Positions 2,639 through 54,130 of a DNA stretch of 54,312 nucleotides are shown here, in pieces. Position 1 is the first letter of the stretch; each line of letters begins with the position of its first letter. The notes under the pieces are model-generated. The model saw only the letters and a list, made by a program, of their open reading frames with translations, was not told the DNA's origin and made no database searches. Both the position numbers and the translations under genes were made by a program. This DNA comes from a virus, in the IMG/VR virus record IMGVR_UViG_3300020474_000020, positions 1 through 54,312 of that record, one strand, 5' to 3'.

Positions 2639-3673
2639 TTATCTTCCTCCAAATTTTCCTTTAAAGGCTTCCATTTGTTTGTTTTTTTGTTTCATTATTT
2701 CATCTTTGAAATCTTGCTGTTGAGCAGATCCCTTCTTCTTCATAACAGCGGCTCTTTGCTTCTTTACCATTTTGCTGTCAAGACTATTCATGTTTTCCAC
2801 CCTATGAATATCATTTTCATTTTTTGCCATAACAAATACTTCGTCAGAATTTTTTACCTTTTCATTAGTGTTATTATCAAATTCATTTTCTGCTTTTTCT
2901 TGTTCTCGTTTTTCTGCCTGTACTATAAACCAACCGTCTAGCATGTCATCATCATCTATAACTTGTTTTGTGGGACAATCCATAGACTCTTGTATATTAT
3001 CATACATTTGAGACCACATAGTAAGTGTTGTTTGATTATATGTTATGTCCTCATCATCTTTATTAAAAAATAACTTTGCACCAGACTTTTCGTATATATT
3101 CCACAATGACTTCCAAGGTTCAGTTCTGGCTAGTTCTCTACACTGTTGCTCTGTAAGTAAAGATTTGTGCCAATGAAATAAAGCTTCGTTTATACCAATA
3201 TCTTCAAAGTCATATAGTTCATTATTTTTATATGTACTATTTTCTATGAGATATTCTAGTTTTTCCGTATACGCTATCCCTTCGCAAGTATTTTGATTAT
3301 AAGAATTTTTAATTTGTAGTTCTTCGTTTAGCTGCTTTTCTCCAGCCCTGATATATTTTCTGATTCTTTCTGCTAGATCTGAATTGTTACGAGATTTATA
3401 AATTTCTACCTTAAGCTTTTCAATATCTTTCTTTAATCCATTTACTCTTTCTTCTTTTTCTTCAGACCATAGCCCATGATCCATCATCCAAGACTCTGTT
3501 TCCTTTTCAGTCATTATGTCGTCGTCGAACGCTTGCTCATAGGCATTGTTATATATAATACAAGATTCTATATTTAACTCTATTGTAAAGGGGTGTACTA
3601 CTAAACCTTTAGGTAAATATGCTTTTCCAGATCTAATTTTATAAATAAAAAACTCCCGCTCATGATGGTTCAT
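2639..3673 (-). CDS. Tail assembly chaperone-like protein (paralogue A)
   Basis: A 344-residue protein immediately after the tail tube gene. The N-terminus (MNHHEREFFIYKIRSGKAYL) leads into a beta-rich stretch, then an IMTEKE helix, a Lys/Glu coiled coil near residues 70 to 120 and a tyrosine-rich part homologous to the protein at 1470-2297. The C-terminal 90 residues are highly charged, with many Lys and Gln. Its ATG overlaps the stop of a 9-codon leader ORF (TAATG) and has its own GAGG site 7 bases upstream. The start lies in the loop of a terminator-like hairpin (3650-3697). An in-phase A AAA AAC heptamer occurs near the 3' end, but a -1 slip there ends within about 7 codons. The role is inferred from gene order. 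Confidence 0.55.
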   Translation of the reverse strand: MNHHEREFFIYKIRSGKAYLPKGLVVHPFTIELNIESCIIYNNAYEQAFDDDIMTEKETESWMMDHGLWSEEKEERVNGLKKDIEKLKVEIYKSRNNSDLAERIRKYIRAGEKQLNEELQIKNSYNQNTCEGIAYTEKLEYLIENSTYKNNELYDFEDIGINEALFHWHKSLLTEQQCRELARTEPWKSLWNIYEKSGAKLFFNKDDEDITYNQTTLTMWSQMYDNIQESMDCPTKQVIDDDDMLDGWFIVQAEKREQEKAENEFDNNTNEKVKNSDEVFVMAKNENDIHRVENMNSLDSKMVKKQRAAVMKKKGSAQQQDFKDEIMKQKNKQMEAFKGKFGGR

Positions 3674-3697
3674 TACGTAACCTCACTGCGGGAGTTT
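3650..3697 (-). terminator. Terminator-like hairpin spanning the chaperone start codon
   Basis: In the transcribed direction the arms are AAACTCCCGC and GCGGGAGTTT, a perfect 10-bp inverted repeat with a 28-base loop, followed by a T-rich run (TTTATTTAT). The loop contains the ribosome site and ATG of the gene at 3673. The upstream arm is inside a 9-codon leader ORF. It is either an attenuator that lowers transcription past the abundant tail tube gene or an RNA structure controlling translation of the next gene. Confidence 0.6.
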
Positions 3698-3702
3698 CCC
3701 AT
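3673..3702 (-). CDS. Candidate 9-residue leader peptide (MGNSRSEVT)
   Basis: A short ORF starting at the ATG at 3702, preceded by AAAGGAAAC with 9-base spacing. Its TAA stop overlaps the next gene's ATG by one base. Codons 2 to 5 form the upstream arm of the 10-bp hairpin, so a ribosome on this leader would prevent the stem from forming. This is the geometry expected for translational coupling or attenuation. The product itself probably has no function. Whether it is translated cannot be judged from sequence. Confidence 0.4.
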   Translation of the reverse strand: MGNSRSEVT

Positions 3703-3730
3703 TTGTTTGTTTCCTTTATGTTCCTAATAA

Positions 3731-3740
3731 ATTATATACT
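3731..3740 (-). promoter_or_regulatory. Candidate late-promoter motif before the chaperone leader
   Basis: Reads AGTATATAAT on the minus strand, 29 bases before the leader ATG and overlapping the end of the tail tube gene. It is one variant of the motif shared by most minus-strand gaps. This copy has AGTATA instead of GTGTATA and part of it is coding sequence, so support is weaker. Confidence 0.3.
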
Positions 3741-4764
3741 AAAGACCAGCTGGGTCGTTAGTTGAGCTAACTGTCAAGTCATTAAAGGTGCTATATGAGT
3801 AAGTAATTGTGGCATTACCTCCAGCAGCGTCACCTCCACCGTAAGTTACGGATGACAGTCTATTCTTAGTACCAAGATCGAAAGTTGTGCCGTTAAGAAG
3901 AACAACTTTAATAGTTTCCTCTGAAGTGTTAGCATCAGCGCCCTCTTCGCAAGAAACATAGTCACCAGAAATGGCAATCACTTCAAATTCAGAAGTTACT
4001 TCTACTGGGAAATTAGGCGAACGATAGTAAGGAGCTTTTCTACCAAGTTCTAGAATATCTTCACGAGCCAAGTCCGTACTACAAGTAAAGTTTTGAATAT
4101 GAACAGCTGGAGAGCCATCAAGCAAAGCATTTCCAGCTCCAGTTCCTTGAGCGCCAAAAATAGCTGCTGGTAATATAGTAGCCGAAAGGTTTACATTCTC
4201 ACGCCTAACAACACCACTTCCAGCAAATGGAGCGTCAGTACCCTTACCACCACCATCTTCTGGAATTTCCAAGGCTCTAGCAGCTGTTACAAGAGAGGGA
4301 TCATTAGTATTCCAACTTTTATCGTTTCCTACCAAGGTTACAGATTCGGTTGCATTTCCATCTGCTGGAATAGTATAAGAAATACTACTGAGATACATAC
4401 CAGACATGAAAACTTCTGCTGGTGCAGCACCAGTTACAGCATCTTGATCATCTGGGTAAATACCAAGACCAACATTACATCTAAGCTTTGATCTGTTAAC
4501 TAATGTGTTGACAGTAGCTCCGGGTGTTGCAGCGTGGTAAATAAGTGGGTGTCCATCAAGTACCTTTTCCAGCGTTACCTCAACATCTGGAAGACCTTCA
4601 ATATTTTCGTAAATTTGAATCTGACCAAGCTCAAATGCCTGCTCTAGATTAAAGTTCGTTGTAATACCCACACTTTGTACGCCATGTATTGTTCTGGGAC
4701 TGCCGTTGACAGAATTTGCAATAACTACGGCTTGGCAGGCATAAAATACTCTATTATTTGCCAT
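3739..4764 (-). CDS. Major tail (tube) protein
   Basis: A 341-residue beta-rich protein. The N-terminal part reads VFYACQAVVIANSVNG, then GVQSVGITTNFNLEQAFELG and IYENIEGLPDVEVTLEKVLD. This layout (self-declared name region, then Q/E-rich strand, then a V/T-E-V strand) matches tail tube proteins I know from many siphovirus-like metagenomic phages. The second half carries a Ser/Thr- and Gly-rich extension that could be an exposed domain on the tube surface. The start has AAGGAG upstream and a promoter-like GTGTATATAA motif 36 bases away. It lies directly before the chaperone-like genes and the tape measure, which supports the assignment. Confidence 0.75.
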   Translation of the reverse strand: MANNRVFYACQAVVIANSVNGSPRTIHGVQSVGITTNFNLEQAFELGQIQIYENIEGLPDVEVTLEKVLDGHPLIYHAATPGATVNTLVNRSKLRCNVGLGIYPDDQDAVTGAAPAEVFMSGMYLSSISYTIPADGNATESVTLVGNDKSWNTNDPSLVTAARALEIPEDGGGKGTDAPFAGSGVVRRENVNLSATILPAAIFGAQGTGAGNALLDGSPAVHIQNFTCSTDLAREDILELGRKAPYYRSPNFPVEVTSEFEVIAISGDYVSCEEGADANTSEETIKVVLLNGTTFDLGTKNRLSSVTYGGGDAAGGNATITYSYSTFNDLTVSSTNDPAGL

Positions 4765-4800: not shown

Positions 4801-4810
4801 TTATATACAC
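4801..4810 (-). promoter_or_regulatory. Candidate late-promoter motif before the tail tube gene
   Basis: GTGTATATAA on the minus strand, in the 50-base gap upstream of the tail tube start, 36 bases from the ATG. It has the same core as the copies at 11.93, 38.58, 41.62 and 51.77 kb. Confidence 0.45.
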
Positions 4811-4814
4811 AAAA

Positions 4815-11930: not shown

Positions 11931-11940
11931 TAATATACAC
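11931..11940 (-). promoter_or_regulatory. Candidate late-promoter motif before the 81-residue gene
   Basis: GTGTATATTA on the minus strand in the 42-base gap between the genes at 11944 and 11901, 30 bases before the ATG. It would start a transcript covering the connectors and remaining fibres. Confidence 0.45.
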
Positions 11941-38579: not shown

Positions 38580-38590
38580 TTATATACACG
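38580..38590 (-). promoter_or_regulatory. Candidate late promoter directly behind the capsid terminator
   Basis: CGTGTATATAA on the minus strand starts at the base following the terminator's T run. It is 44 bases upstream of the next ATG. It has the same core as the other gap motifs. Confidence 0.5.
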
Positions 38591-38626
38591 AAAAAAGCCA
38601 CCCCCAAGCAAATGAGGGCGGCTTTT
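38591..38626 (-). terminator. Rho-independent terminator after the major capsid gene
   Basis: Minus-strand arms AAAAGCCGCCCTC and GGGGGTGGCTTTT form a 13-bp stem with two G-U pairs and an 8-base loop, followed by six T. It lies 22 bases after the capsid stop, the classic place to protect and end an abundant capsid transcript. Confidence 0.85.
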
Positions 38627-38648
38627 CGTTCTGTGCTATTGGTACAGA

Positions 38649-39656
38649 TTAGAATGAGCCAAGGATCACTCTACGGTTGTCCAATACGCCAAAGCCAAGC
38701 TCTGCAAAGCCGTAATATCCAGCTCGCTGCTGACGATGAAGAGTAGGATCTTCAAAGACTTGCAACTGCTCCTTAACAGGCATTACGAAGCTATCACTAG
38801 CGGACTGATCAAGACCAACGACTAGCTCAAGGTCGCTAGTTTGAACAGCACCAGAAAGTTCGCCAGTGAAGAAAGTCTGATATTCCTGACCTTCTCCAAG
38901 CTCATCAAGATCATGAAGATTAACACCAAAGATCCGTGTGATGGGAGCGCCACCTTCTGGAGCAGTGTAAATCTCACGACGAGTTACCTCGTCAACCTGA
39001 TCGAGACCCCAATTGCGAACATCCTCAAGGGCTTCTGGTGAAACGTAGATGTCAGTAAGACGACCACGACCAGTTGAAGCACTGTTACCACCAGAGTTCC
39101 TACGCATAACTGTTTGCATGAGAGAAACAAGTCTCTTGCTAAACAATCCAGCGGTTGCGTCACCGTCGAACACGAGAATGTTACGGTCAACGCCAGCAGC
39201 GAGGATCGTGTGCCATCCATCGTCGTTCATCTTCTTAGTGAAACCAGCTTCCATGACCTGCATGGCGCGACCAACAATGTCCCAACGAGCTTCACGGGCA
39301 TATCGGAGGAGATAATCAACCGAAGATGCAATGCTGTACGTTGGGATCATTACGTAGTCACCTTCAACCGAACGCTCTGGAATTCTACCATGACCGGGAT
39401 TGGTGTAAGCTACATGCTCACCTTCAAGTCCGGGGCTGATAAGATCAAGAGGAAACTCGGTTGTTGAACCAGCTTCTACGTTGATGGTTTCAAAAATATC
39501 GCCAAGGATGTTACCGACAAGCACACCCTTGCGAAGTGGAAGCTCAAGTGCTTTAGCGAATTCTCGCTGTGCAGCTTGTGCTACGTTTACATCACCATCC
39601 CCTGATTGCTTCAGGAGACTAATGAATTCATCACTAGGTCTTTCATTAATAGGCAT
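38649..39656 (-). CDS. Major capsid protein (HK97 fold)
   Basis: A 335-residue protein. The first 20 residues are hydrophilic and end near a possible cleavage zone. The body contains DIYVSPEALEDVRNWGLDQV (typical of the A-domain) and ends YYGFAELGFGVLDNRRVILG, a C-terminal block characteristic of phage major capsid proteins. Length is in the normal range (300 to 400). It follows the decoration protein and prohead protease/scaffold genes in the standard order and is followed by a strong terminator. A good AAGGAG site precedes the ATG. High translation is expected. Confidence 0.9.
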   Translation of the reverse strand: MPINERPSDEFISLLKQSGDGDVNVAQAAQREFAKALELPLRKGVLVGNILGDIFETINVEAGSTTEFPLDLISPGLEGEHVAYTNPGHGRIPERSVEGDYVMIPTYSIASSVDYLLRYAREARWDIVGRAMQVMEAGFTKKMNDDGWHTILAAGVDRNILVFDGDATAGLFSKRLVSLMQTVMRRNSGGNSASTGRGRLTDIYVSPEALEDVRNWGLDQVDEVTRREIYTAPEGGAPITRIFGVNLHDLDELGEGQEYQTFFTGELSGAVQTSDLELVVGLDQSASDSFVMPVKEQLQVFEDPTLHRQQRAGYYGFAELGFGVLDNRRVILGSF

Positions 39657-41616: not shown

Positions 41617-41625
41617 ATTATACAC
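41617..41625 (-). promoter_or_regulatory. Candidate late-promoter motif before the protease/head genes
   Basis: GTGTATAAT on the minus strand, 18 bases before the protease ATG in the gap after the portal gene. It would drive protease, scaffold, decoration and capsid genes up to the terminator at 38.6 kb. Confidence 0.5.
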
Positions 41626-51751: not shown

Positions 51752-51950
51752 ATTGTATCTCCTATTAGGGATTATACACTATTAACAAGAATAATACCAC
51801 CTAATTGTAACTGTTAGGTGCGACAGGGGAGGATTGGGTAATACATATACACTTAGATTTAAAATTGCGTAACAACCACCCCCCGCCAATCGAGGGGGTA
51901 TACGCTCGTACAGCTACAAGATAAAACCCCCCCAACGCGGGGCGTGCAAA
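51752..51950. promoter_or_regulatory. Control gap: two promoter-like motifs and three hairpins
   Basis: This 199-base gap has no ORF I can support. On the minus strand it contains GTGTATATG (51844-51852) and AGTGTATAAT (51771-51780). Between them lies a 7-bp hairpin, CACCTAA and TTAGGTG (51798-51820). Further up are two GC-rich hairpins: ACCCCC/GGGGGT (51878-51899) and a CCCC/GGGG stem with a T run (51923-51943), the latter a good terminator for the 59-residue gene. The 51771 copy sits 20 bases before the small gene's ATG, so it is the likely start of the large late transcript. Confidence 0.6.
51923..51943 (-). terminator. Terminator after the 59-residue gene
   Basis: On the minus strand a GCCCC arm, GCGTT loop and GGGG arm are followed by a short T run (TTTTAT). 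It starts 8 bases beyond the stop at 51951. Short but GC-rich stem, so it would end the small-gene transcript. Confidence 0.6.
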
Positions 51951-54019: not shown

Positions 54020-54068
54020 ATGTCCACCAGAGATTCCATGCTTTGATTTACCCCAAACCCCCTCTTAA
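53931..54068 (+). CDS. Overlapping small membrane or secreted peptide (45 residues)
   Basis: MKKEQKRIVRILALAMIAGI then ICCTVIHLNECPPEIPCFDL: a basic start, a hydrophobic segment of about 17 residues and a Cys/Pro-rich tail. GGAG precedes the ATG at 6 bases. It lies mostly within the 62-residue gene in another frame. The pattern resembles a signal anchor, and could be a small envelope protein; the Cys pair does not give a clear lipobox. Confidence 0.5.
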   Translation: MKKEQKRIVRILALAMIAGIICCTVIHLNECPPEIPCFDLPQTPS

Positions 54069-54090
54069 GGGGGCGCGGGGCGCGCCGCGA
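54058..54090 (+). terminator. GC-rich hairpin and GC-only stretch
   Basis: CCCCCT, loop CTTA, AGGGGG form a 6-bp stem (54058-54073) whose loop contains the stop codon of the 45-residue ORF. A GC-only run (GCGCGGGGCGCGCCGCG) with a GGCGCGCC palindrome follows. No T run, so termination is uncertain. Confidence 0.4.
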
Positions 54091-54130
54091 AACGCTAAGT
54101 CCTTTGTCAGTATAGACTTACATATTTTTC

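Follow-up and report, generated by a model that had tools for sequence, protein, structure and literature searches.

In the 54,312-nt record of an uncultivated virus (IMG/VR record IMGVR_UViG_3300020474_000020, positions 1 to 54,312, analysed whole and referred to here as the window), the transcript of the major tail tube gene appears to end in an intrinsic-terminator-type hairpin that is fused to the start of the gene that follows, a reading that we hold with moderate confidence from comparative sequence analysis. The net function of this element is probably to hold the output of the next gene low relative to that of the abundant tail tube. Siphophages require tail tube in large excess over the tail-assembly and tape-measure proteins, all of them products of neighbouring genes, and if the reading is correct, one RNA of 60 nt that ends most tube transcripts and hides the next start would be a compact device for setting such a ratio. 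The phages bearing the element are an uncultivated long-tailed group, and its retention in dozens of phages for which no close cultured relative was found makes it a reliable marker of the tail module. No element of this form was described in the literature searched; each of its parts belongs to a known kind.

All window features discussed here lie on the minus strand. The gene at 3739–4764 encodes the 341-aa major tail tube protein, whose AlphaFold model matched siphophage major tail proteins in a fold search (8xan, E 1.2e-9; T5 pb6; the P74-26 tail tube). No cultured relatives were found for this protein, and only distant ones for the terminases. The following gene (2639–3673) encodes a 344-aa helical protein with a confident fold prediction (pLDDT 89), and it occupies the position of a tail chaperone, between tail tube and tape measure. 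Sequence or fold kinship with a known chaperone was not found: the protein had no match in PHROGs, PDB sequences or a viral fold library, and its Pfam hits were at chance level. A preliminary description of this DNA had named the two genes as tail tube and chaperone; the former identity is upheld by the fold, whereas the latter is positional, and we infer a chaperone role from gene order only. Downstream lies a 112-aa gene (2299–2637), for which a programmed frameshift of the G/GT type out of the 344-aa gene was considered and rejected, since it has its own Shine-Dalgarno sequence (GGAGG) and ATG at 2637. The next gene (1470–2297; 275 aa) encodes a product that shares 26% identity with the 344-aa protein across 116 residues, which suggests that these two genes, flanking the 112-aa gene, arose by an old duplication. 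The start of the tape measure gene, named by its sequence character and position, occupies 1–1432 and runs off the window; the complete start is present in a 96%-identical relative (L002).

Shortly after the tube stop codon (3741–3739) comes a Shine-Dalgarno sequence, AAGGA (3712–3716), followed by a 9-codon leader ORF at 3673–3702 (MGNSRSEVT*; ATG GGA AAC TCC CGC AGT GAG GTT ACG TAA). Its ATG is at 3702–3700 and its stop codon TAA, at 3675–3673, shares a base with the ATG of the 344-aa gene (3673–3671) in a TAATG overlap. The 5' arm of the stem, AAACTCCCGC (3688–3697), pairs perfectly over 10 bp with the 3' arm, GCGGGAGTTT (3650–3659), which encodes E-R-E-F. A U-rich tract, TTTTTTATTT (3643–3652), begins inside the 3' arm and continues past the stem. 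Within the hairpin lie the Shine-Dalgarno sequence of the 344-aa gene, GAGG (3681–3684), and, in the loop, its start codon (3671–3673). The observation of a leader with its own ribosome site that ends on the next start, of a perfect stem followed by a T-rich run, and of a start enclosed by that stem is thus confirmed on this strand, with two corrections. The 5' arm, said to consist of leader codons 2 to 5, does overlap the leader, but codon 2 supplies its last base only; and the ribosome site and ATG, said to sit in the loop, are both inside the hairpin, but the loop of the window's fold is not open, as GAGG itself pairs with codons 2–4 and leaves 8 nt unpaired.

The stem is stable and G+C-rich, as expected of an intrinsic terminator. 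The element strand folds at −32.9 kcal/mol, far below the −18.0 ± 3.2 kcal/mol of 200 shuffles (z −4.7), none of which folded as well, and the hairpins of 52 relatives have energies of −17.9 to −29.4 kcal/mol. When 27,128 segments of 56 nt from both strands were folded, just three other sites equalled or surpassed the element, placing it among the four strongest hairpins of the window; one of the three is a textbook terminator 3' of the putative major capsid gene. Two further very stable hairpins lie toward the right end of the window (54045–54104 and 51865–51944).

Relatives were gathered along two routes. A search with the window's tube protein sequence yielded 48 loci, whose junction sequences were read directly, and a search of the downstream-protein alignment with patterns from the C-terminal half, which is blind to the element, yielded 79. 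The element was found in 71 of these 79 loci (61 distinct sequences, counting the window), and the eight loci without it are fragments or distant relatives, plus L123; among genome-assembly matches, four of six carry it. L123 is the only close homologue with its gene start covered that lacks the stem. At L123:2900–3045 the whole hairpin is missing between two AAC repeats and the reading frame is broken at that spot, which reflects either a genuine deletion or an error of assembly at so strong a hairpin. A covariance model found one strong copy per record in 32 of 32 phage records, always at the homologue of the 344-aa gene; these records had been picked for carrying the element, so the figure measures copy number rather than prevalence, and the constancy of the site supports the terminator model. 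Second, weak hits of the model were the opposite strand of the same site, except for one at chance level. Rfam gave no match for the window region at E ≤ 1, and none for the relatives at the gathering score.

Among 52 representative sequences (<80% protein identity), the hairpin has two helices, the outer with up to 11 pairs and the inner with four, and 92.2% of the cells in the 15 pairs counted are paired. The covarying stem pairs that the preliminary description proposed to look for are present: eight of the 15 pairs are altered on both sides, and cells changed on both sides number 47, where shuffles give 20 ± 2.8 and slid registers no more than 21. Sliding the partner along the sequence lowers pairing to 37–57%. 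Pair variants include GCUCCCG/CGGGAGC, AUCCCGC/GCGGGAU, UAUG/CAUA and GUG/CAC, and the base preceding the 5' arm tracks codon 7 (U with UAU, A or G with UUU). Tree-aware covariation nearly always runs in the same direction, with too few independent changes for significance; the test is underpowered and was counted against the terminator model. That the hairpin is a functionless coincidence of coding constraint and codon bias has a negligible probability: the 3' arm does encode a conserved protein motif (H-E-R-E-F), but the 5' arm lies outside the gene, has leaders of all three frames running through it and keeps its complementarity, and because this complementarity is conserved the explanation is already contradicted.

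The start codon of the next gene lies within the hairpin in every aligned element (ATG, with GTG in two representatives), and its ribosome site does so in nearly all, the (U)GAGG site being retained in most relatives and shifted or weaker in some. In most relatives the loop inside the inner helix measures about 15–20 nt, larger than the roughly 3–8 nt typical of an intrinsic terminator, which was counted against the terminator model; simple terminator scans did not list the site. Other phage mRNA operators provide a precedent for regulatory-protein binding sites, and a conserved hairpin with a start codon in its loop, present once per genome, would suit an autogenous translational operator bound by the tube or the 344-aa protein. 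Conservation of the loop is, however, confined to the ribosome site, the ATG or codons, and no RNA-binding family was recognised in the gene products, so that we regard an operator as very improbable.

The sequence after the stem reads UUUUUUAUUU in the window, and relatives carry 4–8 U per 9 nt. The tract is U-rich directly past the stem, as in intrinsic terminators, but is broken in many relatives (UAUUUUGU; at worst UAUCUCAU), which also counted against the terminator model. Since the tract is coding (F/Y-F/L-V/I), synonymous choices in the 52 representatives were compared with each gene's own codon usage. The four codons past the stem showed a synonymous excess of U (z 4.6, 2.8, 2.2 and 6.3), which was not found in codons 11–29 after the stem nor in the early codons (6–10) of 196 control genes. 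These controls rule out plain codon usage or an early-codon effect, and the tract is, by this codon comparison, richer in U than the protein demands; a further bias at codons 8 and 10 beyond the stem shows that the constraint is not limited to the tract.

This bias bears on the possibility that control is translational only, the hairpin hiding the ribosome site and start until leader ribosomes open it, with no stop in transcription and with the U-rich stretch reflecting a need for weak structure. In nearly every element the loop contains both ribosome site and ATG, which fits such an arrangement, as do the leader start in 46 of 52 representatives and the leader stops near the ATG (−5 to +11) in 39 of 46; phages f1 and MS2 provide well-documented cases of coupling of the unfolding type (PMC12548453). 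It leaves unexplained both the synonymous U bias just past the stem and the ordinary terminators found at the same junction and after the capsid gene, and we judge it unlikely, although it is the most plausible of the alternatives.

The leader itself is a regular companion of the hairpin. A ribosome site with ATG or GTG 24–41 nt upstream of the start codon is present in 46 of 52 representatives, versus 7 of 189 control genes, and the leader stops fall at −24 to +11 relative to the next ATG in all 46, near or overlapping the downstream start as in translationally coupled pairs, and always upstream of the U-tract. The frequency of the leader start and the constant position of its end before the U-tract support the terminator model, while the absence of a leader in 6 of 52 counted against it. 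In most relatives the 5' arm is made up of leader codons; the peptides differ, range from 1 to 17 codons (the shortest, in L074, being ATG TAA) and use all three frames through the 5' arm. Five of the 46 are in frame with the downstream gene, each with its own stop before the ATG. Traced on the gene tree, with absence scored as a state, the leader shows at least 16 changes of frame and about two losses. Because peptide and frame vary while the start site is kept, the role of the leader would seem to lie in placing a ribosome rather than in making a peptide. The expectation of a conserved leader is thus borne out for its ribosome site and start, but not for its peptide, its frame or its universal presence. 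Homologues lacking stem or leader, which the preliminary description took as evidence against its reading, do exist (the six leaderless representatives; L123 and distant homologues for the stem). The combination of leader, stem, enclosed ribosome site and start, and U-tract recurs in dozens of divergent phages.

The preliminary description had proposed attenuation, in which formation of the terminator depends on whether the leader is translated. Leader codons do make the 5' arm in most relatives, and a ribosome at the leader start would cover that arm. Classical attenuation with a competing antiterminator was nevertheless rejected: the longest upstream complement of the arm is 4.25 nt, versus 4.72 nt in shuffles, and no conserved, mutually exclusive structure was found. 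Neither sensing codons nor a peptide is conserved, given the frame changes and losses just described, and in E. coli a terminator loses only about 10% of its efficiency to a start codon placed 30 bp before it (PMC4824070). Leader-controlled attenuation is accordingly not sustained, and we consider it improbable. A strict translational coupling between tube and chaperone, also proposed, is unlikely as well, the tube stop lying 35–137 nt before the stem wherever the upstream gene is adjacent; any coupling would run from the leader to the next gene, not from the tube gene. The same distance supports the terminator model, since a stop at least 35 nt from the stem is beyond the reach of a few base pairs attributed to trailing ribosomes (PMC4824070). 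In E. coli, terminators perform well when placed in the opening 100 bp of a coding sequence, and termination is abolished only with a stop codon a few bp away (PMC4824070). These measurements support the feasibility of termination at the present site.

Ordinary terminators occur in the same phages and at the same junction. A classic intrinsic terminator (38590–38627) follows the putative major capsid gene (38649–39656) in the window and in 16 of 16 relatives (L173–L188). Among relatives by gene order, one group has classic intergenic terminators at the tube junction, and another lineage (L019, L020, L024, L032, L039 and L041) carries a hairpin of about 11–17 pairs, flanked by U-rich sequence, within the opening codons of the gene after the tube, with apparent compensatory changes. 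A comparable terminator at the tube junction was not found in the group L021–L038, which was counted against the terminator model. In Listeria phage CKA15, an intrinsic termination site has been mapped after the tail tube gene (PMC12282133).

A promoter-like motif, TTTTGTGTATATAA, lies upstream of the tail tube gene at 4801–4814; together with the classic capsid-gene terminators of the same genomes, its presence before the tube gene supports the terminator model. The GTGTATA core was found in about 28 of 33 relatives, lying 48–53 nt upstream of the tube start codon in the majority of the element-bearing clade and 46–79 nt upstream elsewhere, and a conserved GTGTATAATA-like motif is also found 3' of the putative capsid-gene terminator. 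GTGTATAWW recurs upstream of structural genes (4801–4814, 38581–38589, 41617–41625 and 11932–11940), with a count for the whole window of 7 versus 3.8, only modestly over chance, and it is a candidate phage promoter. GTGTATAATA is present as well within the coding sequence of the 275-aa gene homologue, which precedes the tape measure gene, and encodes V-Y-N there (L164, L075, L094, L111 and others); this copy could be an internal promoter or reflect coding constraint.

Between the tube stop and the leader, most relatives carry a second structured RNA, with an invariant GCGAUAG...GGA...GCRAGU core enclosed by a strongly covarying outer helix (L109:2886–2952, L101:2886–2951, L097:2887–2952 and about 35 further relatives). 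It occurs once per genome; of 25 records searched, 16 have it directly abutting the hairpin element and one more gave a weak hit, while the window phage lacks it and keeps the core hairpin unit. It had no significant Rfam match, L109 giving weak sub-threshold matches only, and is a candidate new RNA family. In a distant relative (L195:3906–3983), seven T follow the outer helix, and the second element itself resembles a terminator. We tentatively entertain a wider reading in which the second element (UUGCGAUAGC ... GGA ... GCRAGU), the leader start and the start-enclosing terminator form a composite, lineage-specific cis-regulatory RNA, without a match in Rfam, that would jointly set the ratio of tube to assembly protein through transcription and translation.

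For the hairpin itself, termination is favoured because the pairing is conserved, the U-tract is selected and terminators occupy the same junction in other lineages. RNA polymerase would pass the tube gene and make the hairpin and U-tract, where a large share of transcripts would terminate, leaving a read-through minority to carry the tail-assembly and tape-measure genes. On these, the same hairpin, whose pairing is evident from its conservation, would mask the ribosome site and ATG of the first downstream gene. A ribosome at the strong leader site, which lies at the base of the stem, may cover or unwind the 5' arm and, on stopping at −24 to +11 of the next ATG, could re-initiate. The outcome would be plentiful tail tube and a low yield of downstream protein.

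Intrinsic terminators follow highly expressed structural genes in other phages, such as Tφ after gene 10 of T7 and the terminator between coat genes VIII and III of the filamentous phages (f1 VIII/III). Like these and the site of CKA15, the present element places a hairpin and U-tract right after an abundant structural gene, and its downstream genes would need read-through; unlike them, it wraps the ribosome site and start codon of the next gene, has a coding 3' arm and U-tract, and shares its 5' arm with a leader ORF. With attenuators of the trp/his/pyrBI type it shares a short ORF that has its own ribosome site and overlaps a terminator stem, but it is without conserved regulatory codons or an antiterminator, some relatives are leaderless, and its terminator encloses the structural gene's own start. 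The MS2 coat/lysis and f1 VII/IX pairs (PMC12548453) resemble it in having a hidden start that an upstream ribosome can open and an overlap of stop and start. In contrast to those pairs, the upstream ORF here is not a gene but a leader of 1–17 codons and changing frame, and the hairpin precedes a selected U-tract.
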